Part shown: piece by piece, positions 4,230-31,610 of the stretch
How positions within the stretch are numbered: the first letter of the stretch is position 1
Layout of the letters: each line of letters opens with the position of its first letter
Assembly (NCBI GenBank): GCA_039619475.1
Contig: CM077115.1
Span: 510,652,815 to 510,716,814 of the forward strand
Length of the DNA: 64,000 nt
Direction of reading: 5' to 3'
DNA from: Icerya purchasi
Lineage: Eukaryota; Arthropoda; Insecta; Hemiptera; Monophlebidae
Notes under the pieces: model-generated
Told to the model about the DNA's origin: nothing
Database searches by the model: none
Seen by the model: only the letters and a program-made list of their open reading frames with translations
Made by a program: the position numbers and the translations under genes

Positions 4230-4235
4230 CACCAT
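4230..4235. repeat. Left 6-bp target site duplication CACCAT
   Basis: CACCAT lies directly outside the left end of the palindrome and recurs directly outside the right end at 23154-23159, in the same orientation. Six base pairs is the duplication size made by Polinton/Maverick integrases. A perfect 6-bp match at exactly the two symmetry-defined edges is unlikely by chance. Confidence 0.92.
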
Positions 4236-4559
4236 AGTAGTCATTTATAGAGAGATCTGGCCGTTCCGCTAATCCGAACCCCAATTCCTGTCCCGGAGTC
4301 GAAAATTCACCCCAGACCGCTAATCCGAACACGAAATTCACCCCAATTCATGTCCAGGTGGTCAAAATTCACCCAAGTTTCCCCCGATTCCTCCGAGTTT
4401 CCCCCGGACGGTTTCCGTACATATCCGATAAACCGAACGTCCAAACAGTGTCCCGAGGTCAATAAACTGTCCAAAGTGTTATTCGGGGGGCGCAAGTAAC
4501 CCCAATTAGTGTCCAGGTGCTGAAAGTTCCCCCAAGTTCCCCAAATTTCTCCGAAATTC

Positions 4560-5450
4560 CTCCGTAAGCGTCCCGCTCGTTTCCGATAAACCGAACCGAT
4601 TATTAATTAACATAAGTATATTAATTAATGTCCGAAAGTAACCCAAGTCTCCGATCGCCCCGCCCGCCCGCTCCGTTATCGCATTTTTTTTTTTCAAAAT
4701 TCAGGCCCTAAGTATGAAAATTCTAAAATTTAACCCCAATATATTATTTAAAGCGTAAATCTAACCCAACACCTCCGTTACACCTCTCACATGTATATTT
4801 CGTTACCGCGCACGCTCCGGTCGCGGCCGCGAAAGCGCACGCGCCGATCCCACGCATATTCCGATCTCCACCGCTATATCACACCCACACACACGCACAC
4901 ACACACACACGCTCCGTCTCCAAAATTCCCCTGTACGCGTCCTGCTCGTTTCTGATAAACAGAACCGATTATTAATTATCATAAGTATATTAATTAATGT
5001 CTGAAAATAACCCAAGCCCCCGCTGGTCCCTCCCGCCACTGCGTTACCGCAATTTTTTCAAAATTCCAAGCCTAAGTAAGAAAATTCCAAAATGTAACCC
5101 AAGTATATTATTTAAAGCTAAAATCTAACCTATAACTCCAGTTCACACCTCTCACACGCATATTTCGTTCCCGCGCACGCGCCGGTCCCACGCATACCCC
5201 GATCTCCGCCGTGATATCCCCGCGCACACACGCGCTCCGTTCCCGATACCGCGATTAGTTCTTTAATATTTCAAAGCCTAAGTATACATAATATAAAATT
5301 AGCCGAAGTATATTTTTTTATTTTCCTGATTCTCCGATCTTACTACCATATGCTAAAGCGCACGTCCCGATCCCGCGCATATATCTAACATAGCGTTAGC
5401 TGCGTGGAAGCGCACGCGCTGTTCCCACGCACGTGTCCTCCGTTTACGCT
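4560..5450. repeat. GC-richer subterminal tandem repeat, about three units
   Basis: Units of ~325-360 bp start near 4560, 4920 and 5245; the third is partial. Each contains a TTTC-GATAAAC-GAACCGATTA segment, a TATTAATTAATGTC segment, an AAGCCTAAGTA segment, an AATATATTATTTAAAGC segment and a CGCGCACGC/CCGATC segment. Outside them, 4250-4500 holds shorter repeats of CTAATCCGAAC and AATTCACCCCAATTC. The zone is clearly richer in GC than the surrounding DNA. Function unknown; subterminal repeats can bind transposition or replication proteins. Confidence 0.75.
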
Positions 5451-7509
5451 GCCACAATTTTTTTTAATTATTATTTTTTTTCACATAATAACCCAACCCC
5501 TTCTCTGTTGTCTAAACCTAACCGGTTATCTAAAACATTTACAAATTAACAAATCAAGTATTTCTATAGTTTAAAACTATCCTTAGTCTCCTTTACCCCT
5601 TCCACCCTCTTTTCCGATCGATTCAGTTGTTTTAATATCGAATATATCGCATTCTATTTACTTTTACTACGACCATTTCGACGCTCCCGACGCCTCCGTC
5701 ATTTCATATTGAGAGGTAATTATTTTTTTATGTGACCGCTATGAATGCACACCGTCCATTCCCGTACACCCATCTGATGTCGTTAGTTCACATACCGTTC
5801 ATAATAACTTTTATTCAACTCCAAGTATTATGGAATTATTCCAATTATATATTTTCTACACTTCCGATCATTTCTTCTGACCGTTCATAATATTTTTATT
5901 TTCCTCCGGTTCTAAAAATAAATCCTACAATGTCTTCAACGCGATGAATGTGCACACACTCATCTGCTACCGTTAGATCCCATATCGTTCTTAATAGTTT
6001 TTCGAGCCTAAATATTATAGAAATAGCCGAAGTATATTTTTTTCGTTTCTGATCATTTCTTTCGACCGTTCATATTTTTTTTCCAGACATATGTATTCAA
6101 AAATGAAATCGAGTATAATTTTATTTAACACGGTTTCATAATTTCCCTCTCCATCCCCTATTCATCCTACACAAATTACAATTCTTTCATAATATATGTT
6201 CTAGACCCAGTCAAACAATCAACTCTCGCAGAAGTGTAGACGTTGCCTCCAACACCCATTTTACTATCAATTATTGTATATTATTGTTAGATTATTTTTC
6301 CAAAAAGTCTTTTGAAATTTTTTTCCGTTCGTACATTTTTTTTTGATTTTATTTGCACGACATCCATTTCCATACATTCACGTTTCGCTAGCAATTATAA
6401 TATGTTTTATTTATTTTTCAACTCCTCCCAGACTTACACACACGCCATATTGTCACACTCACAGATAGGTTCCTTATTAATCGTGAACATTTTTTTTTTC
6501 TGTATTAGCCGCGGGAGCATATCACATCAGACCCTCACATATACCACACACAGTTATTATATTTAATTTTTAATTATCGATCTTTAATTATTTTTACTGC
6601 TATTATTTTTCTGACACATTCACCCCGTCTTACATACTTTACATCTTTTAACATTTTGATAGAGAAAATCTCAGGGCACTAAATAATTTTTATCAACATC
6701 GTAACTAAGTTTAATATTATACACATCTCAGTATAATTATTAAACGAAGGAACTATTATTTTCATTGACGATATTGTTGCTACAAACATTAATCGTCCTT
6801 TTCCAGGTATAGTCAACCTCTTCATGTATTCGTCTCGTCTTTCTATCAACCTTTGACCGCTTAATACTCCCCCGCTATTTACCGTTATTCGCTAGAGGAA
6901 TATTTTTTTAGACTCGTTCAAATACACACATGCACATAAAAAAATCGACATCAACGTCATCGAACACTGATCTCGACATTTCCAAGAAATTCAATCGCTG
7001 CTCCACAGTCTAAGATGTCTCCGCCCGCCTCAACAGTCGTTTGTATCATTATTGAAGCGCTTGTCATGTACCGTTATTTACGACCTTTTACAACATACAA
7101 ATTCACGACATGTATACACCTTTTCTAGAAAGCATGGTGAAAATGGACAATCTCTCCCGATGAAAACCAGCTTGAATGATGTACCGTTATTTCATTCATT
7201 TTGCAGAAGGTTAATTTAAGGCGTCCATGCATCTTTTCTACTAATAAATAAGCAAATGTAATCTTTAAACCTTTCTACCTTTTTGCAATCAATTTACTGA
7301 TTGTACATACTTTTTATATTTTTTCCACATACCCCTTGATCGTCACAACCACCACAAAAGCGCACCATCCATTCGCACACACTCATCTGCTACCGTTAGA
7401 TCTCATATCATTCATAATAATTTTTTCGATTCTATTAGTTTAAGAATATTTCATTTTTTTTTGTTGTTTTTTTCTAACTGTAACATTTTTTTTTTCGAAA
7501 TCTTTCGTA
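5451..7509. other. Noncoding arm segment with a recurring module
   Basis: No gene seen. A module recurs in diverged form: CATCTGCTACCGTTAGATC (5960, 7383), CATAYCGTTCATAAT-like strings (5791, 5991, 7406), a TATTATAGAAAT-like string, then GACCATTTCTTCCGACCGTTCATAA-like strings (5880, 6065; another at 9639). Spacing between copies is about 100-200 bp where they cluster. The repeated ACCGTT core may be a protein-binding site, but that is inference. Confidence 0.5.
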
Positions 7510-7967
7510 TTATATTTTTTCTCCCATATGGCTGTCACGTAGTCGTAGCGAAAAATGCTCCGTTCATAACCTTACATGCATGCTGCCACACCGTTGTATT
7601 AGATCGAGCGACAATGTTATAGAGTCTGCTGAAACAGGTTCTTCCCTTTCATATCTTTTGTAGAAAACGGTTTACATGTACACACCTACACACAAACACG
7701 CATATCTTCATCTCTCCTTGACGACGTCTTTCAAACACCTCTATAACCAAAGGAATGTGGTTTTTCTGGTACAACCCTCCCTTTTCAAAGGCATGCATTG
7801 AGGTAGATTGTTGAACGGATCTGATCGTGCAGGCAGTATTAGTTTTATGTTAAACGTGTTCATTTTGTAGAATCTGTGTTCTTCACGCATTATTAAAAAT
7901 TTACTGTAACGGTAAAAGTAATAATTTTCTATTTTTTAGTAGAAAGTTAAAAAAACAGTAATCAAAC
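7510..7967 (+). promoter_or_regulatory. Upstream region of the 334-aa gene, shared with the 282-aa gene
   Basis: The region is clearly homologous to 9655-10213 upstream of the second gene. Shared blocks include CATAACCTTACATGCATG, CCGTTGTATTAGATCG, ACAATGTTATAGAGTCTGCTG, ACATGTACACACCTACACAC and GATCTGATCGTGCAGGCAG. It ends with a pyrimidine tract and AG (TTTTTTAG at 7932-7939), 28 nt before the ATG, and the second gene has the same arrangement. A 3' splice site closing a 5'UTR intron is a reasonable reading. No TATA box stands out. Confidence 0.6.
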
Positions 7968-8972
7968 ATGAATAACAATACCGAATCGAATGTCGATAAT
8001 GTCGCGGATTTCATTCAGAATTCCTTTTCGAGTGATAGCGACTCGCATACGTCTTCTTCACCTCCAACACCGCAAAATGATGATGGTTATACATCAGAAC
8101 AATCAACATCCCTTGTACGTAAAATCGTTGGTCCTGTATTATTATCAGAACAAGTGGATATAGCGGAATATTTTGTAGATATCAGCGTCCATATAGATTG
8201 TGATTATGGGTTTCGAGTAACTGAACTAGCAATGATTGATATGTCTGGAGGGAAGTGTTTGCATACGTTGTATAAGCCAAGCAGAGCATGGCATGCATCA
8301 AAAATGCCACATTTACAATGTTCTTCAGTGAGTTATTACTTGAAGAACCCTTCATTATTTCCCTGTCGTGAAGAAATATTCATCGCACGCGATATATTCA
8401 CGATATTGTCCCAAAAACCGAGGGCTCGCGTATATGTTTTAACAGTATATGCTAAACTTACACTAATAGAACTTAACGAAAAGTCTGAATTGTTGCGTGA
8501 TTTAGACTACGAAATCGTTAATATGGATCAAGTCTTTCGATTATCTAGTATTGAGAATCTACATGAAGAGTATTTTGGTATAAGCAATTTGATAACTTGT
8601 AAACACCATAATGAGAATGATAGTTTTCATTGTGCGGTGAAAAACGTTATGGTGATGAAGGCATGGTACGATCATGTCATCCGTCCGCTGAAGCTTATGA
8701 ATAATCTCAATATAAATGATTTAAGTCAGTTGTTCATTACAACCACCAAAGAAATGATAATTACGTTATTTCCAAGTTGTGTTGGAGACATTTATACATT
8801 TTTACCAGATAGACTAAAACAGGATGATACGATAAAATCACTTCTACCATGTTTTGAACATGAGAATGATGAAGAATATTATTTCGATGACGATATATTT
8901 CTGCATAGTACTCGAAATTGTATGAAAGTAAAAGATTGTATCGACTGCCAACGTACAATTCGCGCAGATTAA
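7968..8972 (+). CDS. 334-aa protein, degenerate DEDD-exonuclease-like layout, left arm
   Basis: Intact ORF. Residues 1-18 (MNNNTESNVDNVADFIQN) are shared with the 282-aa protein of the same arm. Residues 20-48 are Ser/Thr/Pro-rich and probably disordered. Residues 68-104 (FVD at 69-71, then GFRVTELAMIDMSGG and LHTLYKP) resemble the first strands of a DEDDh exonuclease, but the usual D-x-E lacks its Glu. Residues 155-170 (VYVLTVYAKLTLIEL) sit where motif II lies, and H221-C-A-V with CKHH at 211-214 sits where the HxAxxD motif lies. The spacing resembles a family of uncharacterised arthropod proteins I recall by their KELA...F-KPP and CxxH...CA-x-N patterns. The C-terminus is acidic (299-309) and ends with C318, C324 and C327. 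The ATG starts the shared leader and lies after a possible splice acceptor. Catalytic loss is inferred; an unrelated fold is possible. Confidence 0.8.
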   Translation: MNNNTESNVDNVADFIQNSFSSDSDSHTSSSPPTPQNDDGYTSEQSTSLVRKIVGPVLLSEQVDIAEYFVDISVHIDCDYGFRVTELAMIDMSGGKCLHTLYKPSRAWHASKMPHLQCSSVSYYLKNPSLFPCREEIFIARDIFTILSQKPRARVYVLTVYAKLTLIELNEKSELLRDLDYEIVNMDQVFRLSSIENLHEEYFGISNLITCKHHNENDSFHCAVKNVMVMKAWYDHVIRPLKLMNNLNINDLSQLFITTTKEMIITLFPSCVGDIYTFLPDRLKQDDTIKSLLPCFEHENDEEYYFDDDIFLHSTRNCMKVKDCIDCQRTIRAD

Positions 8973-9654
8973 AAATTCATTAATTCGATCGTTTTTAACA
9001 ATTTTGTATATTTTTTCTGTATATTTTTGTGTGTATTTGTACATATATATTTTTTTTTCAGACCGTTCGTTTTTATGTTTTCTTTAAAATTTTTTAAATA
9101 TATTTTTATACACATGTAAATACTGTTTTGTATATATTTTGTATATATTTTTTCCCTCAATATCTATTCATTCTCATATTGTATATATTTTTTTGCTAAT
9201 TATTTTTTCATCTTTTTCCGATCCTTTCCGATTTCTGTTTATTTAATTTATTTAGCGATCTATCCTTCTCTCCCCCTCTTAACTTAAAGTACTGGTAATG
9301 ACGAAATTTTCAAAAATCTGAACCAGTCGAGTATAATGTATATATAATTATTTAATTTTCGAATATATTTCCACATAATTTGTTCATATCTGTTTAGATT
9401 AAAAAATTAGATTTTTGTCTGTAATACACCGTTTTTTTTTTTATGTTTTTGTGTGTAATAAGCGAATTCAACTGTTATACTTTTTCACGTACATCGCGTA
9501 CTTCCACAGCTGTGAGAGTTTTCATCTGTTTCTAAGATACAACCTCTGACTCTAAATGTTCTCTAAATATTTTTTTTGAGCTTAAATATTATAGAATTAT
9601 TCTAACTATATTTTTTTCGCTTCTGACCATTTCTTCCGACCGTTCATAATTTTG
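8973..9654 (+). other. Intergenic stretch between the two arm genes
   Basis: Very T-rich 3' flank of the 334-aa gene. It contains several TATATTTTT strings, a run of C/T near 9260-9280, and a copy of the ACCGTTCATAAT module ending at 9650. No gene is supported. The mirror is 17735-18416. Confidence 0.6.
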
Positions 9655-10213
9655 TATTTTTTCTCCAATATGTATGCTCACTATCGTAGCGTAAATGTGC
9701 GTCGCTCATAACCTTACATGCATGTTGCCATACCGTTGTATTAGATCGTGCGACAATGTTATAGAGTCTGCTGGAACAGGTTCTTACCCTTTATATTTTC
9801 TGTAGAAACAGGCTCACATGTACACACCTACACACACATACACACACATATAACCCAAAGAACACCTGCAAACTTCGTTCAGACACACCTGCATCCAACT
9901 TTCACCAAAGGAATGTGGTTTTTTCTGATGCAACCCCCCCTTTTCAAAGGCATGCTTCGAGCTCGAATGTCGAACGGATCTGATCGTGCAGGCAGTATTA
10001 GTGTTATGTTAAACGTGTGGAATTTGTTGAAGTTGTGTTCTTCACGCGTTATTAAAATATTCTCAAGAACGATAAAGTCTGTAATTTCCTACGCCTTTTC
10101 TCTTTTTCGTTCGCTCTTTATTTTCTGTCTTTTTTCTCTCTTATTGCACGTTATTCTTTTCGCTCTTATTTTCTCTCATTTTTTTAGTATAAATATTACA
10201 ATAATAATCGAAT
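9655..10213 (+). promoter_or_regulatory. Upstream region of the 282-aa gene
   Basis: Diverged duplicate of 7510-7967, about 100 bp longer because of extra CA-rich and CT-rich sequence. A long pyrimidine tract (10095-10185) ends in TTTTTTAG at 10180-10187, a strong 3' splice site 26 nt before the ATG. TATAAATA at 10188-10195 lies right after it and could instead be a TATA-like element. A 157-codon ORF running through this region is low complexity and probably not a gene. Confidence 0.6.
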
Positions 10214-11062
10214 ATGAATAACAATACCGAATCGAATGTCGATAATGTCGCGGATTTCATTCAAAATTTTTTCGTAAATGATAATGATAATGCAATGTTT
10301 CCGGACGATTTTCCAAATATACATATGCCGCCACCACCACCACCAGCAGAAGAAACATCATTACAAGGGCCTTCGCTACATTCATTCTCAGATTTCATTC
10401 CATTGGCTACATCAACACCTTTAGCATCACCGGTAATGTCACAAGATTTGCAAACTCCGTCGTTAATGCAAGTACCTTTGGTACATGATGAAAAAGAATA
10501 TAGCACAACAATGTTGGAATTACCCAAAGAAATATTTAACCGAAAAGCAGTCGTCTATGTTAAAGACCCTAACGATCCAGAAAATAAAAATAGTTTCATG
10601 TATGCGGTTTTAGCAAAATTTACATCAAAACCGTCATCGATGTGGCAGTACAATATTCTACAGAAAGTATACGATTTCAGCTTTATTCACTTACCGATCC
10701 AATCGCTGGCTGATATTGAAACGTTTGAAAGAATAAACGCTGTATCAATCAACTTATACAAGCTGATAGAAACCGACTATACAGATCAAAGTACATTCAA
10801 CTACAAAATAAAAGTCGTGTACGCCTTCCGAAAAAATCACAGTTTGTTAAATTATAAACATCACACAAACATATTATATTGGGGATCTAATGGAAATTAT
10901 CAATTCGCATGGATAAAAAAATTCAGTCGATTGTTGCGGATCCAGTCGCCGAAAGCGAAATTTGTATGCTGGTCATGTCTCGATCCCATGAATACCGATT
11001 ACGAACATAATAATACTCACAGATGTGACGCAGTCAGTTGGCGTAATATGCACTATATGTAA
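10214..11062 (+). CDS. 282-aa protein resembling the N-terminal region of Polinton-type PolB, left arm
   Basis: Intact ORF. Residues 1-18 equal those of the 334-aa protein. Residues 38-44 are a Pro run in a disordered linker (20-100). From residue 112 the layout matches, as I recall it, the region before the exonuclease and polymerase domains of arthropod Polinton-type DNA polymerase B proteins: VVYVKDPNDPENKNSFMYAVLA (113-134), a FIHLPIQSLADIETFERIN segment (157-175) followed by VSINLY, then HTNILYW (217-223), WIKKFSRLL (233-241), and a terminal zinc knuckle C252-x2-C255 with H265/H269 and C271. The protein ends 11 residues later, so there is no exonuclease or polymerase palm. AATAAA at 11066-11071 lies just after the stop. 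It may bind DNA or a polymerase; that role is inferred. Confidence 0.82.
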   Translation: MNNNTESNVDNVADFIQNFFVNDNDNAMFPDDFPNIHMPPPPPPAEETSLQGPSLHSFSDFIPLATSTPLASPVMSQDLQTPSLMQVPLVHDEKEYSTTMLELPKEIFNRKAVVYVKDPNDPENKNSFMYAVLAKFTSKPSSMWQYNILQKVYDFSFIHLPIQSLADIETFERINAVSINLYKLIETDYTDQSTFNYKIKVVYAFRKNHSLLNYKHHTNILYWGSNGNYQFAWIKKFSRLLRIQSPKAKFVCWSCLDPMNTDYEHNNTHRCDAVSWRNMHYM

Positions 11063-13323
11063 TTAAATAAAGACGTATTTTTCGTATTCATAGATGTATT
11101 TTTATTTTTCAAAAAATCTTTTTACATTGTTTCATACAAATTAATGTAATCTATATAATATAATAAATATTTTCATATGTATACATTTTTGTTTTTATTT
11201 TCCATAAACTTAAAATTCCAATTTTACTATTGTTGTTAATATATTCCAAACTCCAGTTTGTATTAAATCCTCTCGTTCCTTATGTTGAACAGACGAATCA
11301 ATATTATTTAACTGTTCAGTTAAGTATGCAGAGTCTTTTTATCTTGCTTAACTTTAAAGATATATGATAGATTCTTTTTTCATTTGACAGTGTAAACGTT
11401 TTCTTCTTTTACAATTTTCTTATGCTTTATCACTATTACAACATTTTTCATCATTTTCTAACTAATTGTAAACATTTTTTCACTATTTCGTAACATGTTC
11501 TTATGTTTTTGAACTTTTTACGCTACTTTTTTCACCAATTTATACTATTTCGAAGCGTTTCATATGACTGAACGCTACTTAAGAAGTTTTTCGATAATTA
11601 TCACCATTCCTCGCAATATTCATATGTTTTAACGCTTTTTACACTATTTTTCACAAATTCATGATATTTCGCTTCATTTCTAATGTTTGAACGACTCATA
11701 TGCAGTTTTTCGACAATTTTTCACCGTTCATCACTATATTTTTTTATGTTGTATCACCTTTTATGAAGTCTTCATCAAATTTTACCTTCATTCAACAATA
11801 TTTTCGTTATTGTACCCCTTTGAACTGTTGTTTTACCCTAAAAGCGAGTGTATATCTAATTTGTTATAATTAAGAAAGAATGTAATGTATATTACAAATT
11901 TCCTTTCCTGGGAGTATGATTGTGTGTGCAGAATAATAAACTCTGGTAAGAAGCAGACTGTATCCACCATCAAGCAGGGTGTGTAAAGCGTGGTAATTAA
12001 CTCTGGCATTGCACATATTGCAAGGTAGTTATGATATGTTTGAGCATAAATTAGTTGTTGTATATCATTCATGTTAGTCATTAAATGTTCACACTGAGAG
12101 ATGCAAGGGGGGCGTCATCATATGAACCATTACGATTTTTATAATTATAATATACACTAAGCATGTATGTATTACAACGACCACATCAACTCTGTTAAGG
12201 ACGGTAATGTTTGGGGGTAGATAGTGAACCTTTACATTAGAAGAGGAACATGGGTACATACATGGAAACATCATTAGCGATATTACATCACATGTATGTC
12301 ATCAAATTTAACTAAAATATTGCGTCCAATAGTAAAAAATGCGAGGATTTTTCCTAAGAGGTTAAATTTTATGTCTAAGATGGCGAATATAATAAAATTG
12401 ATGCGATTTTAGCTGAAGATGGTGTATTTTACACTAAAATCGTTGTTTTACACCTAAAGTGAGATTATTTGGGGAGATAAACGGTCTTTTTTCATATAAA
12501 ATTTTATGTTTTTTCTAAATTTGGCTATTTTTTGTCCTAAATGGAGTAATTTCTGTGTGAATGGCACTTTTTAGACTGGCCTATATACTTCTTGATGTGA
12601 TATTCCATTCATTGTGAAGCTATGCTTTGAAAGGGTTTGTGTCTGGTTGTGGGAAGTTTCCAAACTTTTCTGATGCATCGATTATAGTATAATAGTTGTT
12701 GTGTGTTAGTGAGTTGATGGTGTTTGGATGGGGATAATAAATAGGGGTAAGAGGTGGAGTGTACCACATCAAGCAAGGAGAGTACTGTTTGATAATTAAC
12801 TCTATCATTTAAACACATTGCAAGTCAGTTATAATATGTTAAGTCAAAATTAGTTGTTGTATCTCGTTCAGGATTTTACATTAAACGATCACACTGAGAG
12901 ACGCGATGGACTCGTCATCATCAAGATCCATGCAATCATTACATTATTTTTCACTAATTTGTAATCACCATTTTTTTTTTATGTTTTGAACGACTCTTAT
13001 AATGTTTTTTGATAATTTCCATGGTACAAGGTTCATAATGTAAAGTAATTTTAATTATTTCAACAGTCTTTACACACAAATAAAGCAATATATCTTAAGC
13101 ACACTCAACATAATACAAATTTTTACAAACAGAAGTAAACAAAAGATTTACTTAGAAATTTTAATAAAATTTAAGAATCATATTATATATGAAGTTGCTT
13201 GTTTTTTCAATCAATGATCCAAACTAGCAGGTTTAGAATTATATCAGACCTCGAGTAAAAACCCCAAATTATTTAATGTGTATATCTTTGCTACTTTTTA
13301 CCTCATATATGTGAATATACATA
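11063..13323. other. Inner noncoding zone of the left arm
   Basis: No gene supported. From 11400 to 11830 there is a degenerate short-unit repeat built on strings such as TTTTTCACTATTT, ATATGTTTTAACGC and TTTTTCGATAATTTTCACC; a related patch recurs at 12940-13020. A ~210-bp module occurs twice (see the separate entry). The final 300 bp hold most of the arm differences. Confidence 0.6.
11925..12945. repeat. Duplicated ~210-bp module within the left arm
   Basis: 11925-12135 and 12725-12945 are diverged direct copies. Both contain a GAATAATAAA/GATAATAAA string, CATCAAGCA, GTGGTAATTAACTCT/GATAATTAACTCT, CACATTGCAAG, TTAGTTGTTGTAT and CACACTGAGAGA, in the same order and spacing. The mirror copies are 15254-15464 and 14444-14664. 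The role is unknown. Confidence 0.7.
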
Positions 13324-14065
13324 TCTACACATATTCATATATATCCACATATATACATATATCCATAAATATCTACATACATATATATATCTACATATAT
13401 GCATATATATCTACATATACACATATATATCTACATATACACATATATATCTACATATGCACATATATATCTACATATATTCATATATATCTACACATAT
13501 ACATATATCCATAAATATCTACATACATATATATATCTACATATATACATATATATCTACATATACACATATATATCTACATATATACATATATATCTAC
13601 ATATATTCATATATATCTACATATATGCATATATATCTACATATATACATATATATCTACATACATACATATATATCTACATATACACATATATATCTAC
13701 ATATATACATATATATCTACATATATACATATATATCTACATATATTCATATATATCTGCATATATGCATATATATCTACATATATACATATATATCTAC
13801 ATATATACATATATATCTACATATATACATATATATCTACATATATACATATATATCTACATATATTCATATATATATCTACATATATACATATATCTAT
13901 AAATATCTACATACATATATATATCTACATATATGCATATATATCTACATATATACATATATATCTACATATATACATATATATCTACATATATACATAT
14001 ATATCTACATATATACATATATATCTACATATATACATATATATCTACATATATTCATATATATC
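13324..14065. repeat. Central 20-bp AT-rich satellite, about 37 units
   Basis: The unit is ATATATCTACATATATACAT with single-base variants. All TCTAC strings run in the same direction, so this is the only part of the element that is not symmetric. A longer variant containing CATAAATATCTACATACATA (with CTATAAATATC in one case) recurs near 13350, 13507 and 13890, giving a higher-order pattern. Long Tyr/Ile/His-rich ORFs here are repeat translation, not genes. The array joins the two arms. Confidence 0.95.
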
Positions 14066-16326
14066 TATGTATATTCACATATATAAGGTAAAAAGTAGCA
14101 AAGATATACACATTAAATAATTTGGGGTTTTTACTAGAGGTCTGATATAATTCTAAACCTGCTAGTCTGGATCATTGATTGAAAAAACAAGCAATTTCAT
14201 ATATAATATGATTCTTAAGTTTTATTAAAATTTCTAGGTAAATCCGTTGTTTACTTCTGTTTGTAAAAATTTGTATTATGTTGAGTGTGCTTAAGATATA
14301 TTGCTTTATTTGTGTGTAAAGACTGTTGAAATAATTAAAATTACTTTACATTATGAACCTTGTACCATGAAAATTATCAAAAAACATTATAAGAGTCGTT
14401 CAAAACATAAAAAAAAAATGGTGATTACAAATTAGTGAAAAATAATGTAATGATTGCATGGATCTTGATGATGACGAGTCCATCGCGTCTCTCAGTGTGA
14501 TCGTTTAATGTAAAATCCTGAACGAGATACAACAACTAATTTTGACTTAACATATTATAACTGACTTGCAATGTGTTTAAATGATAGAGTTAATTATCAA
14601 ACAGTACTCTCCTTGCTTGATGTGGTACACTCCACCTCTTACCCCTATTTATTATCCCCATCCAAACACCATCAACTCACTAACACACAACAACTATTAT
14701 ACTATAATCGATGCATCAGAAAAGTTTGGAAACTTCCCACAACCAGACACAAACCCTTTCAAAGCATAGCTTCACAATGAATGGAATATCACATCAAGAA
14801 GTATATAGGCCAGTCTAAAAAGTGCCATTCACACAGAAATTACTCCATTTAGGACAAAAAATAGCCAAATTTAGAAAAAACATAAAATTTTATATGAAAA
14901 AAGACCGTTTATCTCCCCAAATAATCTCACTTTAGGTGTAAAACAACGATTTTAGTGTAAAATACACCATCTTCAGCTAAAATCGCATCAATTTTATTAT
15001 ATTCGCCATCTTAGACATAAAATTTAACCTCTTAGGAAAAATCCTCGCATTTTTTACTATTGGACGCAATATTTTAGTTAAATTTGATGACATACATGTG
15101 ATGTAATATCGCTAATGATGTTTCCATGTATGTACCCATGTTCCTCTTCTAATGTAAAGGTTCACTATCTACCCCCAAACATTACCGTCCTTAACAGAGT
15201 TGATGTGGTCGTTGTAATACATACATGCTTAGTGTATATTATAATTATAAAAATCGTAATGGTTCATATGATGACGCCCCCCTTGCATCTCTCAGTGTGA
15301 ACATTTAATGACTAACATGAATGATATACAACAACTAATTTATGCTCAAACATATCATAACTACCTTGCAATATGTGCAATGCCAGAGTTAATTACCACG
15401 CTTTACACACCCTGCTTGATGGTGGATACAGTCTGCTTCTTACCAGAGTTTATTATTCTGCACACACAATCATACTCCCAGGAAAGGAAATTTGTAATAT
15501 ACATTACATTCTTTCTTAATTATAACAAATTAGATATACACTCGCTTTTAGGGTAAAACAACAGTTCAAAGGGGTACAATAACGAAAATATTGTTGAATG
15601 AAGGTAAAATTTGATGAAGACTTCATAAAAGGTGATACAACATAAAAAAATATAGTGATGAACGGTGAAAAATTGTCGAAAAACTGCATATGAGTCGTTC
15701 AAACATTAGAAATGAAGCGAAATATCATGAATTTGTGAAAAATAGTGTAAAAAGCGTTAAAACATATGAATATTGCGAGGAATGGTGATAATTATCGAAA
15801 AACTTCTTAAGTAGCGTTCAGTCATATGAAACGCTTCGAAATAGTATAAATTGGTGAAAAAAGTAGCGTAAAAAGTTCAAAAACATAAGAACATGTTACG
15901 AAATAGTGAAAAAATGTTTACAATTAGTTAGAAAATGATGAAAAATGTTGTAATAGTGATAAAGCATAAGAAAATTGTAAAAGAAGAAAACGTTTACACT
16001 GTCAAATGAAAAAAGAATCTATCATATATCTTTAAAGTTAAGCAAGATAAAAAGACTCTGCATACTTAACTGAACAGTTAAATAATATTGATTCGTCTGT
16101 TCAACATAAGGAACGAGAGGATTTAATACAAACTGGAGTTTGGAATATATTAACAACAATAGTAAAATTGGAATTTTAAGTTTATGGAAAATAAAAACAA
16201 AAATGTATACATATGAAAATATTTATTATATTATATAGATTACATTAATTTGTATGAAACAATGTAAAAAGATTTTTTGAAAAATAAAAATACATCTATG
16301 AATACGAAAAATACGTCTTTATTTAA
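14066..16326. other. Inner noncoding zone of the right arm
   Basis: Mirror of 11063-13323, with the same repeats in reverse and no gene supported. Confidence 0.6.
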
Positions 16327-17175
16327 TTACATATAGTGCATATTACGCCAACTGACTGCGTCACATCTGTGAGTATTATTATGTTCGTAATCGGTATTCA
16401 TGGGATCGAGACATGACCAGCATACAAATTTCGCTTTCGGCGACTGGATCCGCAACAATCGACTGAATTTTTTTATCCATGCGAATTGATAATTTCCATT
16501 AGATCCCCAATATAATATGTTTGTGTGATGTTTATAATTTAACAAACTGTGATTTTTTCGGAAGGCGTACACGACTTTTATTTTGTAGTTGAATGTACTT
16601 TGATCTGTATAGTCGGTTTCTATCAGCTTGTATAAGTTGATTGATACAGCGTTTATTCTTTCAAACGTTTCAATATCAGCCAGCGATTGGATCGGTAAGT
16701 GAATAAAGCTGAAATCGTATACTTTCTGTAGAATATTGTACTGCCACATCGATGACGGTTTTGATGTAAATTTTGCTAAAACCGCATACATGAAACTATT
16801 TTTATTTTCTGGATCGTTAGGGTCTTTAACATAGACGACTGCTTTTCGGTTAAATATTTCTTTGGGTAATTCCAACATTGTTGTGCTATATTCTTTTTCA
16901 TCATGTACCAAAGGTACTTGCATTAACGACGGAGTTTGCAAATCTTGTGACATTACCGGTGATGCTAAAGGTGTTGATGTAGCCAATGGAATGAAATCTG
17001 AGAATGAATGTAGCGAAGGCCCTTGTAATGATGTTTCTTCTGCTGGTGGTGGTGGTGGCGGCATATGTATATTTGGAAAATCGTCCGGAAACATTGCATT
17101 ATCATTATCATTTACGAAAAAATTTTGAATGAAATCCGCGACATTATCGACATTCGATTCGGTATTGTTATTCAT
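16327..17175 (-). CDS. 282-aa protein resembling the N-terminal region of Polinton-type PolB, right arm
   Basis: Identical protein copy on the right arm, also transcribed toward the centre. All features of the left copy are kept, including the Pro run, the WIKKFSRLL segment and the C-terminal C-x2-C...H...C knuckle. The poly(A) signal mirrors to 16318-16323. Confidence 0.82.
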   Translation of the reverse strand: MNNNTESNVDNVADFIQNFFVNDNDNAMFPDDFPNIHMPPPPPPAEETSLQGPSLHSFSDFIPLATSTPLASPVMSQDLQTPSLMQVPLVHDEKEYSTTMLELPKEIFNRKAVVYVKDPNDPENKNSFMYAVLAKFTSKPSSMWQYNILQKVYDFSFIHLPIQSLADIETFERINAVSINLYKLIETDYTDQSTFNYKIKVVYAFRKNHSLLNYKHHTNILYWGSNGNYQFAWIKKFSRLLRIQSPKAKFVCWSCLDPMNTDYEHNNTHRCDAVSWRNMHYM

Positions 17176-17734
17176 ATTCGATTATTATTGTAATATTTAT
17201 ACTAAAAAAATGAGAGAAAATAAGAGCGAAAAGAATAACGTGCAATAAGAGAGAAAAAAGACAGAAAATAAAGAGCGAACGAAAAAGAGAAAAGGCGTAG
17301 GAAATTACAGACTTTATCGTTCTTGAGAATATTTTAATAACGCGTGAAGAACACAACTTCAACAAATTCCACACGTTTAACATAACACTAATACTGCCTG
17401 CACGATCAGATCCGTTCGACATTCGAGCTCGAAGCATGCCTTTGAAAAGGGGGGGTTGCATCAGAAAAAACCACATTCCTTTGGTGAAAGTTGGATGCAG
17501 GTGTGTCTGAACGAAGTTTGCAGGTGTTCTTTGGGTTATATGTGTGTGTATGTGTGTGTAGGTGTGTACATGTGAGCCTGTTTCTACAGAAAATATAAAG
17601 GGTAAGAACCTGTTCCAGCAGACTCTATAACATTGTCGCACGATCTAATACAACGGTATGGCAACATGCATGTAAGGTTATGAGCGACGCACATTTACGC
17701 TACGATAGTGAGCATACATATTGGAGAAAAAATA
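17176..17734 (-). promoter_or_regulatory. Upstream region of the 282-aa gene, right arm
   Basis: Mirror of 9655-10213, with pyrimidine tract and acceptor-like AG at 17202-17203 on the minus strand. Confidence 0.6.
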
Positions 17735-18416
17735 CAAAATTATGAACGGTCGGAAGAAATGGTCAGAAGCGAAAAAAATATAGTTAGAATAATTCTATAA
17801 TATTTAAGCTCAAAAAAAATATTTAGAGAACATTTAGAGTCAGAGGTTGTATCTTAGAAACAGATGAAAACTCTCACAGCTGTGGAAGTACGCGATGTAC
17901 GTGAAAAAGTATAACAGTTGAATTCGCTTATTACACACAAAAACATAAAAAAAAAAACGGTGTATTACAGACAAAAATCTAATTTTTTAATCTAAACAGA
18001 TATGAACAAATTATGTGGAAATATATTCGAAAATTAAATAATTATATATACATTATACTCGACTGGTTCAGATTTTTGAAAATTTCGTCATTACCAGTAC
18101 TTTAAGTTAAGAGGGGGAGAGAAGGATAGATCGCTAAATAAATTAAATAAACAGAAATCGGAAAGGATCGGAAAAAGATGAAAAAATAATTAGCAAAAAA
18201 ATATATACAATATGAGAATGAATAGATATTGAGGGAAAAAATATATACAAAATATATACAAAACAGTATTTACATGTGTATAAAAATATATTTAAAAAAT
18301 TTTAAAGAAAACATAAAAACGAACGGTCTGAAAAAAAAATATATATGTACAAATACACACAAAAATATACAGAAAAAATATACAAAATTGTTAAAAACGA
18401 TCGAATTAATGAATTT
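17735..18416 (-). other. Intergenic stretch between the two arm genes, right arm
   Basis: Mirror of 8973-9654: A-rich on the plus strand with no gene supported. Confidence 0.6.
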
Positions 18417-19421
18417 TTAATCTGCGCGAATTGTACGTTGGCAGTCGATACAATCTTTTACTTTCATACAATTTCGAGTACTATGCAGAAATATATCGTC
18501 ATCGAAATAATATTCTTCATCATTCTCATGTTCAAAACATGGTAGAAGTGATTTTATCGTATCATCCTGTTTTAGTCTATCTGGTAAAAATGTATAAATG
18601 TCTCCAACACAACTTGGAAATAACGTAATTATCATTTCTTTGGTGGTTGTAATGAACAACTGACTTAAATCATTTATATTGAGATTATTCATAAGCTTCA
18701 GCGGACGGATGACATGATCGTACCATGCCTTCATCACCATAACGTTTTTCACCGCACAATGAAAACTATCATTCTCATTATGGTGTTTACAAGTTATCAA
18801 ATTGCTTATACCAAAATACTCTTCATGTAGATTCTCAATACTAGATAATCGAAAGACTTGATCCATATTAACGATTTCGTAGTCTAAATCACGCAACAAT
18901 TCAGACTTTTCGTTAAGTTCTATTAGTGTAAGTTTAGCATATACTGTTAAAACATATACGCGAGCCCTCGGTTTTTGGGACAATATCGTGAATATATCGC
19001 GTGCGATGAATATTTCTTCACGACAGGGAAATAATGAAGGGTTCTTCAAGTAATAACTCACTGAAGAACATTGTAAATGTGGCATTTTTGATGCATGCCA
19101 TGCTCTGCTTGGCTTATACAACGTATGCAAACACTTCCCTCCAGACATATCAATCATTGCTAGTTCAGTTACTCGAAACCCATAATCACAATCTATATGG
19201 ACGCTGATATCTACAAAATATTCCGCTATATCCACTTGTTCTGATAATAATACAGGACCAACGATTTTACGTACAAGGGATGTTGATTGTTCTGATGTAT
19301 AACCATCATCATTTTGCGGTGTTGGAGGTGAAGAAGACGTATGCGAGTCGCTATCACTCGAAAAGGAATTCTGAATGAAATCCGCGACATTATCGACATT
19401 CGATTCGGTATTGTTATTCAT
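18417..19421 (-). CDS. 334-aa protein, degenerate DEDD-exonuclease-like layout, right arm
   Basis: Second copy with a protein sequence identical to the left-arm gene and transcribed toward the element centre from the other side. Complete identity of a 334-codon gene in the two arms, while arm tips and centre have diverged, points to recent duplication or gene conversion. Same domain reading: shared 18-residue leader, low-complexity linker, exonuclease-like core with missing acidic residues, acidic Cys-containing tail. Confidence 0.8.
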   Translation of the reverse strand: MNNNTESNVDNVADFIQNSFSSDSDSHTSSSPPTPQNDDGYTSEQSTSLVRKIVGPVLLSEQVDIAEYFVDISVHIDCDYGFRVTELAMIDMSGGKCLHTLYKPSRAWHASKMPHLQCSSVSYYLKNPSLFPCREEIFIARDIFTILSQKPRARVYVLTVYAKLTLIELNEKSELLRDLDYEIVNMDQVFRLSSIENLHEEYFGISNLITCKHHNENDSFHCAVKNVMVMKAWYDHVIRPLKLMNNLNINDLSQLFITTTKEMIITLFPSCVGDIYTFLPDRLKQDDTIKSLLPCFEHENDEEYYFDDDIFLHSTRNCMKVKDCIDCQRTIRAD

Positions 19422-19879
19422 GTTTGATTACTGTTTTTTTAACTTTCTACTAAAAAATAGAAAATTATTACTTTTACCGTTACAGTAAATTTTTAATAAT
19501 GCGTGAAGAACACAGATTCTACAAAATGAACACGTTTAACATAAAACTAATACTGCCTGCACGATCAGATCCGTTCAACAATCTACCTCAATGCATGCCT
19601 TTGAAAAGGGAGGGTTGTACCAGAAAAACCACATTCCTTTGGTTATAGAGGTGTTTGAAAGACGTCGTCAAGGAGAGATGAAGATATGCGTGTTTGTGTG
19701 TAGGTGTGTACATGTAAACCGTTTTCTACAAAAGATATGAAAGGGAAGAACCTGTTTCAGCAGACTCTATAACATTGTCGCTCGATCTAATACAACGGTG
19801 TGGCAGCATGCATGTAAGGTTATGAACGGAGCATTTTTCGCTACGACTACGTGACAGCCATATGGGAGAAAAAATATAA
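19422..19879 (-). promoter_or_regulatory. Upstream region of the 334-aa gene, right arm
   Basis: Mirror of 7510-7967, with the possible splice acceptor AG at 19450-19451 on the minus strand. Confidence 0.6.
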
Positions 19880-21938
19880 TACGAAAGATTTCGAAAAAAA
19901 AAATGTTACAGTTAGAAAAAAACAACAAAAAAAAATGAAATATTCTTAAACTAATAGAATCGAAAAAATTATTATGAATGATATGAGATCTAACGGTAGC
20001 AGATGAGTGTGTGCGAATGGATGGTGCGCTTTTGTGGTGGTTGTGACGATCAAGGGGTATGTGGAAAAAATATAAAAAGTATGTACAATCAGTAAATTGA
20101 TTGCAAAAAGGTAGAAAGGTTTAAAGATTACATTTGCTTATTTATTAGTAGAAAAGATGCATGGACGCCTTAAATTAACCTTCTGCAAAATGAATGAAAT
20201 AACGGTACATCATTCAAGCTGGTTTTCATCGGGAGAGATTGTCCATTTTCACCATGCTTTCTAGAAAAGGTGTATACATGTCGTGAATTTGTATGTTGTA
20301 AAAGGTCGTAAATAACGGTACATGACAAGCGCTTCAATAATGATACAAACGACTGTTGAGGCGGGCGGAGACATCTTAGACTGTGGAGCAGCGATTGAAT
20401 TTCTTGGAAATGTCGAGATCAGTGTTCGATGACGTTGATGTCGATTTTTTTATGTGCATGTGTGTATTTGAACGAGTCTAAAAAAATATTCCTCTAGCGA
20501 ATAACGGTAAATAGCGGGGGAGTATTAAGCGGTCAAAGGTTGATAGAAAGACGAGACGAATACATGAAGAGGTTGACTATACCTGGAAAAGGACGATTAA
20601 TGTTTGTAGCAACAATATCGTCAATGAAAATAATAGTTCCTTCGTTTAATAATTATACTGAGATGTGTATAATATTAAACTTAGTTACGATGTTGATAAA
20701 AATTATTTAGTGCCCTGAGATTTTCTCTATCAAAATGTTAAAAGATGTAAAGTATGTAAGACGGGGTGAATGTGTCAGAAAAATAATAGCAGTAAAAATA
20801 ATTAAAGATCGATAATTAAAAATTAAATATAATAACTGTGTGTGGTATATGTGAGGGTCTGATGTGATATGCTCCCGCGGCTAATACAGAAAAAAAAAAT
20901 GTTCACGATTAATAAGGAACCTATCTGTGAGTGTGACAATATGGCGTGTGTGTAAGTCTGGGAGGAGTTGAAAAATAAATAAAACATATTATAATTGCTA
21001 GCGAAACGTGAATGTATGGAAATGGATGTCGTGCAAATAAAATCAAAAAAAAATGTACGAACGGAAAAAAATTTCAAAAGACTTTTTGGAAAAATAATCT
21101 AACAATAATATACAATAATTGATAGTAAAATGGGTGTTGGAGGCAACGTCTACACTTCTGCGAGAGTTGATTGTTTGACTGGGTCTAGAACATATATTAT
21201 GAAAGAATTGTAATTTGTGTAGGATGAATAGGGGATGGAGAGGGAAATTATGAAACCGTGTTAAATAAAATTATACTCGATTTCATTTTTGAATACATAT
21301 GTCTGGAAAAAAAATATGAACGGTCGAAAGAAATGATCAGAAACGAAAAAAATATACTTCGGCTATTTCTATAATATTTAGGCTCGAAAAACTATTAAGA
21401 ACGATATGGGATCTAACGGTAGCAGATGAGTGTGTGCACATTCATCGCGTTGAAGACATTGTAGGATTTATTTTTAGAACCGGAGGAAAATAAAAATATT
21501 ATGAACGGTCAGAAGAAATGATCGGAAGTGTAGAAAATATATAATTGGAATAATTCCATAATACTTGGAGTTGAATAAAAGTTATTATGAACGGTATGTG
21601 AACTAACGACATCAGATGGGTGTACGGGAATGGACGGTGTGCATTCATAGCGGTCACATAAAAAAATAATTACCTCTCAATATGAAATGACGGAGGCGTC
21701 GGGAGCGTCGAAATGGTCGTAGTAAAAGTAAATAGAATGCGATATATTCGATATTAAAACAACTGAATCGATCGGAAAAGAGGGTGGAAGGGGTAAAGGA
21801 GACTAAGGATAGTTTTAAACTATAGAAATACTTGATTTGTTAATTTGTAAATGTTTTAGATAACCGGTTAGGTTTAGACAACAGAGAAGGGGTTGGGTTA
21901 TTATGTGAAAAAAAATAATAATTAAAAAAAATTGTGGC
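19880..21938. other. Noncoding arm segment with recurring module, right arm
   Basis: Mirror of 5451-7509, with the same module copies in reverse orientation. No gene seen. Confidence 0.5.
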
Positions 21939-22829
21939 AGCGTAAACGGAGGACACGTGCGTGGGAACAGCGCGTGCGCTTCCACGCAGCTAACGCTATG
22001 TTAGATATATGCGCGGGATCGGGACGTGCGCTTTAGCATATGGTAGTAAGATCGGAGAATCAGGAAAATAAAAAAATATACTTCGGCTAATTTTATATTA
22101 TGTATACTTAGGCTTTGAAATATTAAAGAACTAATCGCGGTATCGGGAACGGAGCGCGTGTGTGCGCGGGGATATCACGGCGGAGATCGGGGTATGCGTG
22201 GGACCGGCGCGTGCGCGGGAACGAAATATGCGTGTGAGAGGTGTGAACTGGAGTTATAGGTTAGATTTTAGCTTTAAATAATATACTTGGGTTACATTTT
22301 GGAATTTTCTTACTTAGGCTTGGAATTTTGAAAAAATTGCGGTAACGCAGTGGCGGGAGGGACCAGCGGGGGCTTGGGTTATTTTCAGACATTAATTAAT
22401 ATACTTATGATAATTAATAATCGGTTCTGTTTATCAGAAACGAGCAGGACGCGTACAGGGGAATTTTGGAGACGGAGCGTGTGTGTGTGTGTGCGTGTGT
22501 GTGGGTGTGATATAGCGGTGGAGATCGGAATATGCGTGGGATCGGCGCGTGCGCTTTCGCGGCCGCGACCGGAGCGTGCGCGGTAACGAAATATACATGT
22601 GAGAGGTGTAACGGAGGTGTTGGGTTAGATTTACGCTTTAAATAATATATTGGGGTTAAATTTTAGAATTTTCATACTTAGGGCCTGAATTTTGAAAAAA
22701 AAAAATGCGATAACGGAGCGGGCGGGCGGGGCGATCGGAGACTTGGGTTACTTTCGGACATTAATTAATATACTTATGTTAATTAATAATCGGTTCGGTT
22801 TATTGGAAACGAGCGGGACGCTTACGGAG
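21939..22829. repeat. GC-richer subterminal tandem repeat, right-arm copy
   Basis: Exact mirror of the block at 4560-5450 apart from the G/A difference at 4585 versus 22804. The further T/C difference (4414 versus 22975) lies in the tip repeats outside the units. Confidence 0.75.
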
Positions 22830-23153
22830 GAATTTCGGAGAAATTTGGGGAACTTGGGGGAACTTTCAGCACCTGGACACTAATTGGGGTTACTTGCGCC
22901 CCCCGAATAACACTTTGGACAGTTTATTGACCTCGGGACACTGTTTGGACGTTCGGTTTATCGGATATGTACGGGAACCGTCCGGGGGAAACTCGGAGGA
23001 ATCGGGGGAAACTTGGGTGAATTTTGACCACCTGGACATGAATTGGGGTGAATTTCGTGTTCGGATTAGCGGTCTGGGGTGAATTTTCGACTCCGGGACA
23101 GGAATTGGGGTTCGGATTAGCGGAACGGCCAGATCTCTCTATAAATGACTACT

Positions 23154-23159
23154 CACCAT
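23154..23159. repeat. Right 6-bp target site duplication CACCAT
   Basis: Direct copy of the hexamer at 4230-4235, directly outside the last base of the right arm (the arm ends ...ATGACTACT). Confidence 0.92.
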
Positions 23160-23398: not shown

Positions 23399-23565
23399 CT
23401 GTTTTTTATAATTGTCTTTTTGTATAAAACGATCGCAAAACTGCGTTTGATAAAAAGCAATTAATTTTAGTTTTTTTTTTTATTAAAATTTCAACATAAG
23501 CGCTAATTTCGAAGAAAATTTAGGGAAGGAAAAAATATATATACATACACATATATACATATATA

Positions 23566-24718
23566 TATAACTCGGCCATTTTGCCCTCACAAGGGGCTGT
23601 GCCCCTTGACCCTTCTTGTTTTCATTTCTGTCTCTTTCTCTTCTATACTTTGTATAAAATGATCAAAATTTACAACGTAATTCTTACTGGCATCAACACA
23701 AAAAAAATAACAATCATAAAAATCCTATCCTAACATTTAACTTTCATTATATAAAATTAAGACATTTTTTCGTTACATATTTCGTTACATACAATTGTGA
23801 CGAAATTTTTAAAATAACAATAACAAAAATCCTACAAAATATAACAAACGTCACATAAAAATGGGACATTTTTTTGGGACATTTGGCGTTACATAAAATT
23901 GGAACATTTTTTCTAAAGGGGGGTAGCCTAAGAATTACGTTGTAATTAATATATACACAGTGCGTTCTAGAATAATGTTATCAGTTAAAGAGCGATTTCA
24001 TTATAAACGGTCGGGAGAGGGGCAGGGTGCGTTTTTGGGTTTTGGTGTAAACGCACGAAATGTAGCTGGAACCTTGCTCTAGACAATGTCGCCAAGAGAG
24101 TGAGGCTGCCGGGCACAGGAAAAAACAGACGACAAAAAAAATATAAGAGAAAAGACAATGCAAAGCGTGTGAAAAACGTACTTACTAAAAAAATGGAAAT
24201 GCTCCACAGAAAAACGAAGGATTAGGTGCGCGTGACGTTTTTCTTCGGAGGATTTCCAATATATATTTATATATATATATATATATATATATTAATTACA
24301 ACATAATTCTTAGGTTACCCCCCATTAGAAAAAATGTCTCAATTTTATGTAACGCCAAATGTCCCAATTTTATGTAACGCAAAATGTCCCAATTTTATGT
24401 AACGCAAAATGTCCCAATTTTATGTAACGTTTGTTATATTTTATAGGATTTTTGTTATTGTTATTTAAAAAATGACACAATTTTATGTAACGAAATATGT
24501 AACGAAAAATGTAACGAAACAATGTCTTAATTTTATATAATGAAAGTTAAATGTTAGGATAGGATTTTTGTGATTATATTATTCTTTTTGTGTTGATGCC
24601 AGTAAGAATTACGTTGTAAATTTTGATCATTTTATACAAAGTATAGAAGAGAAAGAGACAGAAATGAAAGCAAGAAGGGTCAAGGGGCATAGTCCCTTGC
24701 GAGGCCAAAATGACCGAG

Positions 24719-24725
<7 letters not shown>
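23566..24725. repeat. Inverted pair of an unnamed ~0.4-kb repeat
   Basis: 23566-23956 and 24290-24725 are inverted copies. Each runs from ATTAATTACAACRTAATTCTTAGG through an ACCCCC tract, several ATGTCCCAATTTTATGTAACGC units (period ~25 bp, four in the right copy), AAATGTTAGGATAGGATTTTTGTGATT, AAATTTTGATCATTTTATAC, AGAGAAAGAGACAGAAATG and GAGGCCAAAATGACCGAGTT, ending in TA repeats. The ~330 bp between the copies (23957-24289) are not repeated. A third copy, split by a LINE, is at 27726-31498. Short ORFs inside are not convincing. The pair may be one foldback-type element. Confidence 0.75.
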
Positions 24726-24747
<22 letters not shown>

Positions 24748-24754
<7 letters not shown>

Positions 24755-27725: not shown

Positions 27726-28561
27726 TACAACGTAATTCTTAGGCCGGCCTCCATTAGATTTTGTAATGTCTCAACTTTACACAACGAAAGTTAAATGTTA
27801 GGATAAGATTTTTGTGATTATGTTATTTTTTTTGTATCGATGCCGGTAAGAATGACGTAAATTTTGATCATTTCATGCAATGTGTTGTAAAAAAAATATT
27901 AGGAAACAAAGAGCATAAAATACGAGAATTAAACGTAAACAATAATAAATTAACCGTAGATGATAATAAATACGAGGTTGCATGCAGCTTTAACAACTAT
28001 TTCTCAAATTCTGTTCCAGATCTTTTACGAAATGAAAGCTTTCTCCCCTACCTTGCGACAGGGTCATCAATTTCTGAGTCGTTTGGATTCACAGATTTTT
28101 TAGAGGATGAAATAAAGAATGTAATAATGTCTTTCCCATGCAAAGCTTCGTTTGGCTCGGACGGGTTATCAATAATATTAATAAAAGAAAATATAAAATT
28201 TTTTGTCAAACCTCTAACATACCTTTTCAATAAATCTATAAAAAGTGGTACATTTCCTAGTATTTTAAAATTAGGTACAATTACTCCAGTATATAAAGGT
28301 GAGGACAAATGCGAAATGATGAATTATAGACCAATATGTATACTGCCCACAATATCAAAAATTTTTGAAAAGTGTGTTAAAAAGCGGATTATGAACTTTT
28401 TATGCCGAAATGAGTTCTTTAGTATAAATCAGTATGGATTCTTAGAGGGAAAAGGCACTGACATTGCATTATTTAAGCATATATCTTACATCACTGAACA
28501 TACTGAAACCGGTAAATCGTGTCTAGCTGTATATTTTGATCTAAGAAAAGCATTTGATATA

Positions 28562-31498: not shown

Positions 31499-31610
31499 TT
31501 ACATCAAACAAATGAAACAACGCCAGAAGTATTTGCAAAATAAAAATGGCAAACTCAACAAGAAACTAGAAGATTAAAAAATCAACGATGGCTTAATAAG
31601 ATTTATAGAT
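31499..31610. other. Short spacer
   Basis: AT-rich, with no feature recognised. Confidence 0.5.

Follow-up and report, generated by a model that had tools for sequence, protein, structure and literature searches.

What kind of element makes up the palindrome of ~18.9 kb at positions 4230 to 23159 of this stretch of Icerya purchasi DNA? The stretch is called the window below (64,000 nucleotides of contig CM077115.1, 510,652,815 to 510,716,814; positions given alone are counted from its first letter). The original prediction saw in the palindrome a Polinton-like element. Its tips, its target-site duplications (TSDs) and two Polinton genes agree with that view, although it does not seem to be a Polinton in its own right and looks non-autonomous. 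We consider it likely to be a non-autonomous palindromic derivative of a Polinton/Maverick, which uses Polinton proteins in trans and whose arms are rematched through a hairpin or by gene conversion.

Architecture of the palindrome

Two inverted arms, 4236-13323 (plus strand) and 14066-23153 (minus strand), match with 11 mismatches in 9088 bp and no indel (99.879% identity). The register is as exact as had been claimed, with the coordinates of paired bases summing to 27389 throughout, and a chance origin of a 9-kb inverted repeat in such register is impossible. The left arm starts with the tip AGTAGTCATTTATAGAGAGATCTGG. Direct repeats of CACCAT bound the element at 4230-4235 and 23154-23159, where the original prediction had placed them, and other DNA flanks it on both sides. 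Between the arms lies a single-copy spacer of 742 bp (13324-14065), a TACATATATACATATATATC-type microsatellite made of TACATATATATATC-type repeats, within a 20-bp-period array of 38 copies (13318-14084, Tandem Repeats Finder). With base 13324 included there are 12 mismatches, 10 of them at or beyond 13019, in the last 0.3 kb of the arm adjoining the spacer.

Each arm carries two open reading frames (ORFs), both oriented toward the centre. ORF1 (334 aa) lies at 7968-8972 on the plus strand of the left arm, with a right-arm copy encoding the identical protein at 18417-19421 on the minus strand. ORF2 (282 aa) lies at 10214-11062 (plus) and, again with an identical protein, at 16327-17175 (minus).

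A large family with Polinton-type ends

We searched the genome from which the window derives (1.103 Gb, 41 contigs). The searches scored only the best candidates, so that all copy counts are lower bounds, and the matches listed are the best-scoring ones and hence biased toward intact copies. ORF2 had at least 138 listed matches (out of 2517 first-look candidates) and ORF1 at least 120 (out of 4026), of which 133 and 115, respectively, were free of stops. Among the listed ORF2 matches, 124 of 138 formed 62 converging pairs within 12 kb, and 14 were unpaired in the list. Both arms had equal scores in 53 of the 62 pairs, compared with 1.5% of between-element comparisons. The window element belongs to a large multi-copy family.

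Twelve elements were read at both ends: that of the window, two from search loci and the ten best-scoring pairs, among which E07 and E08 proved to belong to a single composite element. All 12 were flanked by a perfect 6-bp direct duplication, each different (CACCAT, GTCCAA, ATTATA, TATTAA, GACCTG, TAGAAC, TGTATG, GCCTAC, CATATT, GCAATG, AACGGC, CCTTCA), and all 12 had AGTAGTC tips at both ends, as did two more elements at the one end that was read. Near the tips, 14 and 4 bases vary among elements and are identical at the two ends of each (12/12). The 14-base block sits between constant blocks directly behind AGTAGTC and comes in a few recurring types. The palindromes insert as units with Polinton-type tips and duplications, as had been proposed from the window alone, and other copies with the same kind of ends and 6-bp duplications exist. 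In intact vertebrate Mavericks, the end motif is (AGT)2...(ACT)2 and TSDs are of 6 bp (PMC8097293), which agrees with the earlier naming of a 6-bp duplication and an AG terminus as Polinton traits.

The composite element, C1:178776639-178808146 (E07/E08), holds two inner palindromes in tandem that share a single pair of tips and a single TSD (GCCTAC), as unit insertion of a concatemer would leave them.

Arm matching within elements

Arms were compared over a core of 3.8 kb that includes both genes, in 11 elements with E07 and E08 counted separately. The two arms of an element differed by 0 bp in seven of the 11, by 2, 3 and 5 bp in three others and by 46 bp in E03, while core divergence between elements averaged 2.02% (220 comparisons). 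A tree paired the two arms of each simple element as sisters, with support of 58 for E03 and of 96-100 for the other eight; the composite had four identical arms.

Over the whole arms, six of the nine simple elements (E00, E01, E02, E05, E06 and E10) agreed out to the tips except in the centre-most part, E02 having an inner rearrangement in one arm. In E04 and E09, no 500-bp stretch between ~3 and 8.5 kb off the tip had more than one difference. The arms are repeatedly rematched, over their full or partial length, and near-identical arms mean recent renewal.

ORF2 is under selection and resembles the N-terminal part of PolB

ORF2 matched the N-terminal parts of two PolBs encoded in the same genome (BLASTP; 26% over 170 aa, E 4e-11, and 30% over 171 aa, E 2e-12), in line with the earlier suggestion that one gene resembles a region of the Polinton-type polymerase. 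According to a preprint (PMC11071308), a vOTU-like protease domain (D2) with an invariant Cys and His comes after the primer-protein domain in polinton PolBs, and these two residues are lost in adenovirids and bidnavirids. The end of ORF2 falls just past the C..C part of PolB in the alignment, and we take ORF2 to correspond to D2, as a free-standing vOTU-like domain together with the zinc part of Polinton PolB. Its Ser127 and Gln230 align with a Cys and a His of the two PolBs, are the same in 10 of 10 elements, and would replace the presumed catalytic pair.

In a codon alignment of 11 sequences from 10 elements, ORF2 had a dN/dS of 0.13 (codon test, P = 0.007). Its divergence (0.61%) was the lowest of the core, the remaining regions of which ranged from 1.7 to 5.0%. 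ORF2 is constrained by selection.

ORF1 matched an uncharacterised ORF that adjoins the capsid gene in an ordinary Polinton of the same genome (BLASTP; 22% over 228 aa, E 7e-15), so that both arm proteins have Polinton homologues within this genome. Neither ORF1 nor ORF2, nor a padded version of the ORF2 query, had a match in protein databases; searches of Pfam, PDB sequences and IMG/VR gave nothing of note, and single-sequence AlphaFold2 models (mean pLDDT 35.4 and 33.6) were of no use. A motif scan of IMG/VR returned 13 loci, all judged to be chance.

We scanned ORF1, ORF2 and ten further frames with Pfam, out of 43 stop-to-stop frames of at least 60 aa in the arm and spacer. No polymerase, integrase (rve), ATPase, protease or capsid domain was recognised in these 12 frames, nor did a transposase match; the only polymerase remnant recognised is the N-terminal PolB piece, ORF2. 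An ATPase, a protease and a capsid protein were detected by the same method in an ordinary Polinton of the genome. Because no catalytic part of PolB and none of these other functions was recognised, we regard the element as a non-autonomous derivative rather than a Polinton itself.

Ordinary Polintons and a PolB-bearing palindrome in the same genome

A genome search with PF03175 gave 133 matches (91 of 638 candidates scored), which correspond to at least 89 PolB loci after 44 further pieces of the same genes were dropped. One ordinary Polinton encodes, within C2:121158300-121165300, an integrase (rve), an A32-type ATPase, a phospholipase A2-like protein, an adenovirus-type protease (E 0.0007, below the Pfam cut-off), a double jelly-roll capsid protein and the ORF1 homologue. 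A PolB lies beyond this stretch, where the PolB end, with the tip AGTAGTGTCG, is at C2:121175291. Since no such tip occurs in the stretch that was read, we treat C2:121158300-121175291 as a single element, with positions 121165761-121174699 unread. AGTAGT is common to this tip and those of the family, and the bases beyond it differ.

A second palindrome, C1:475533444-475553252, bears a PolB. It is 19.8 kb long, with AGTAGT tips and the TSD GGCGAG. Its left arm holds a 135-aa ORF, a whole PolB, two F-box proteins and an 82-aa ORF, and its right arm mirrors the left where it was read (3.3 kb is unread), with a PolB frame of 1248 aa and the start of the 135-aa ORF. Aligned pieces of the two arms are 99.0-99.5% alike, and the copy numbers of their subterminal repeats differ. 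The outer 3.3 kb is up to 98% identical to single-arm elements. The inner arm has a single occurrence over the matched length at six other loci (95-99%), so this palindrome is young or has recently exchanged sequence with them.

The right arm and the 53-nt loop of this palindrome run collinear with one of these six loci, the ordinary Polinton on C2 described above (96% over 163 bp), after which the two diverge as the palindrome turns back. Since the Polinton is collinear through both arm and loop, half a Polinton seems to have been kept and copied in reverse, and the half with the integrase and capsid genes appears to have been lost. This second palindrome suggests fold-back duplication as the origin of the family as well. 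The axis is marked only by a 5-nt complementarity, GATTT/AAATC, which is weak evidence alone. A 34-bp hairpin of ordinary Polintons, considered as a candidate at the axis, was rejected, the sequence being collinear through arm and loop and its folding unremarkable (z +1.9).

Twelve of the 89 PolB loci form six converging pairs, and the palindrome described above, the only one read, is therefore probably not unique. The other pairs, at C1:427203115/427209192 and 427215823/427221901, C1:284140212/284145383, C1:540609540/540612249 and C2:167996207/167999702, are probably PolB-bearing palindromes too, including one that is tandemly doubled.

Other elements have similar ends. C1:474726589-474745432 has one PolB, an inverted repeat of only ~430 bp and a tip in common with the PolB-bearing palindrome. 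Elements of 13-21 kb (for example C2:279752154/279771773, C1:345875050/345894668 and C2:82889769/82909868) carry the first 0.4-1.3 kb of the ends of that palindrome on both sides and not the next 2 kb; they are perhaps further families using the same tips. The F-box proteins beside PolB (809-1297 and 1741-2217 of the sequence stretch read, numbered within it) could link a Polinton-type element to host protein turnover.

Possible replication cycle and alternative explanations

In the cycle that we envisage, a PolB with its built-in primer protein would be supplied in trans, and linear DNA would be copied from two equivalent ends. A displaced single strand could then fold into a hairpin of ~9 kb with the microsatellite as its loop, and repair or copying of the stem would make the arms alike again. 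A Polinton-type integrase, also acting in trans, would insert the product and generate the 6-bp duplication. The first such palindrome would have come from fold-back copying of one Polinton end, as proposed for the PolB-bearing palindrome. ORF2 would be a pseudo-protease, a vOTU domain minus its catalytic pair, kept by selection and perhaps binding PolB or its junction with the primer protein; ORF1 may be its partner. We advance more tentatively a stronger form of this idea, a long-lived lineage of giant hairpin replicons in which the arms are rematched at each replication cycle via a self-annealed 9-kb hairpin and a dead PolB-type protease domain is kept to parasitise the polymerase of full Polintons.

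Several observations weigh against this account. In E04 and E09, the outer 2.5-3 kb of the arms differ by 1-10% per 500 bp, and in E03 the outer arms differ by up to 24% and are identical only ~6.5-8.5 kb off the tip; such patchy matching is no less compatible with gene conversion or copy choice than with hairpin repair. The mismatches of the window element are concentrated at the inner ends of its arms. Wherever it was seen among copies, the central repeat was of one kind (E01, E03 and E09 share it with the window element), and as it is common to several copies, the palindrome is not rebuilt anew at each insertion. ORF1 diverges about as fast as non-coding DNA (2.29%), with a dN/dS of 0.49 and a codon test that was not significant (P = 0.30). 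That Ser127 and Gln230 occupy the catalytic positions is judged from an alignment of three sequences. No ordinary Polinton with exactly the tips of the family was identified, so the partner acting in trans is inferred.

The arms of a Polinton-type palindrome might instead be kept alike by gene conversion in the chromosome after insertion, as in large chromosomal palindromes. This would suit the matched tracts of E04 and E09, which occupy the inner arm and stop sharply ~2.5-3 kb off the tip, the more gradual stop in E03, and a spacer that is not homogenised. However, the variable tip bases agree in all 12 elements, and conversion would have had to cover the whole arm in most copies. We rank hairpin rematching before gene conversion because the arms match as far as the tips in six of the nine simple elements, and we regard gene conversion alone as rather unlikely, if the most serious of the alternatives. 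That the palindrome is a dead fossil, which arose once and spread passively with genes that mean nothing, would accord with the lack of any recognised catalytic replication or integration gene in the arm and with the non-significant constraint on ORF1. It is very improbable given that both frames are open in most of the copies listed, that ORF2 is constrained, that 12 elements each sit at their own target, and that near-identical arms point to recent renewal.

Foldback DNA transposons with long terminal repeats are known, such as Tetris and Galileo, and the palindrome could in principle be an unrelated transposon of the FB, Galileo, Tetris or MULE (Mutator-like element) kind that has captured two fragments of Polinton genes. 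The AGTAGT tips, the 6-bp TSDs, the presence of two Polinton genes and the correspondence of another palindrome to half a Polinton make this very improbable. An artefact of assembly from fold-back chimeric reads is hardly credible: palindromes are a known artefact of some long-read libraries, but all 12 elements have different flanks and each its own perfect 6-bp duplication, and the palindrome in the window is flanked by other DNA. A non-autonomous, palindromic Polinton derivative is in our view the best explanation.

Other features of the window

The N-terminal residues of ORF1 and ORF2 are nearly alike, and the modules upstream of the two genes are 81% identical (ORF1 module, 7510-7898, plus, and 19491-19879, minus; ORF2 module, 9652-10057, plus, and 17332-17737, minus). 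To judge from the similar starts and modules, one 5' region was duplicated within the arm, and the modules may represent a shared promoter or 5' region. A GTG-start open frame of 157 aa (9748-10221, plus; mirrored at 17168-17641) overlies the upstream module of ORF2; it had no Pfam match and is probably not a gene. Subterminal repeats occupy 4332-5233 of the left arm, plus strand (4332-4438/4491-4596 and 4548-4822/4917-5187), and 22156-23057 of the right arm, minus strand.

Outside the palindrome, an inverted repeat of 0.4 kb (83%; 23539-24750) starts ~380 bp past its right end. Parts of this MITE-like (miniature inverted-repeat transposable element-like) sequence recur at 27716-27883 and 31398-31504. 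The segment 27875-30916 looks like a mariner inserted in a long interspersed nuclear element: a mariner-type transposase ORF (358 aa; 28610-29686, minus), flanked by a 92.5% inverted repeat (28560-28599/29842-29881), separates two parts of a reverse transcriptase gene.

Significance and comparison with known systems

Our results suggest that a virus-like group of transposons can yield palindromic parasites that are stable and spread within a genome. Their matched arms may serve as an internal clock and as a natural experiment on the homogenisation of 9-kb palindromes; if the hairpin replicon lineage is real, arm divergence would date each insertion, like the two long terminal repeats of retrotransposons. 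A free-standing, catalytically altered vOTU domain under selection would also give a handle on the control of Polinton PolB and its primer protein.

The family resembles Polintons/Mavericks in its (AGT)2 tips, its 6-bp TSDs, its size of ~19 kb and its two homologous genes. It differs from them in layout, with arms of 9.1 kb around a 742-bp spacer in the window element instead of short repeats around a single-copy gene block. Its 9.1-kb repeats compare with 46-1447 bp for the terminal repeats of intact vertebrate Mavericks (PMC8097293) and with ~430 bp in C1:474726589-474745432. Within the titles and abstract beginnings of the open-licence papers listed, the Polinton literature on palindromes, inverted duplications, foldback and non-autonomous forms did not describe such a layout, and the original prediction, which knew of no described family of this kind, holds to that extent. 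The PolB-bearing palindrome is similar in its length of ~20 kb, its AGTAGT tips, its 6-bp TSD and genes that converge on the centre, whereas it carries a whole PolB and two F-box genes per arm and has a loop of only 53 nt. Long inverted repeats also form much of FB, Galileo and Tetris elements, but these belong to other transposase families with other TSD lengths (the family here has 6 bp in 12/12) and are not known to have protein-primed relatives.

Protein-primed adenoviruses and linear plasmids give rise to palindromic defective forms in which one half is lost and the other inverted and duplicated, with identical ends. Vierula and Bertrand reportedly described in 1992 a derivative of the kalilo plasmid with a palindromic or hairpin form, and an adenovirus with a duplicated left end is said to be a defective palindromic form; adenovirus cases did not turn up in our literature search. 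The family in this genome would be the integrated counterpart of such molecules. They are episomal by-products, whereas the palindromes of this family are integrated, are present in many copies and carry a gene under selection.

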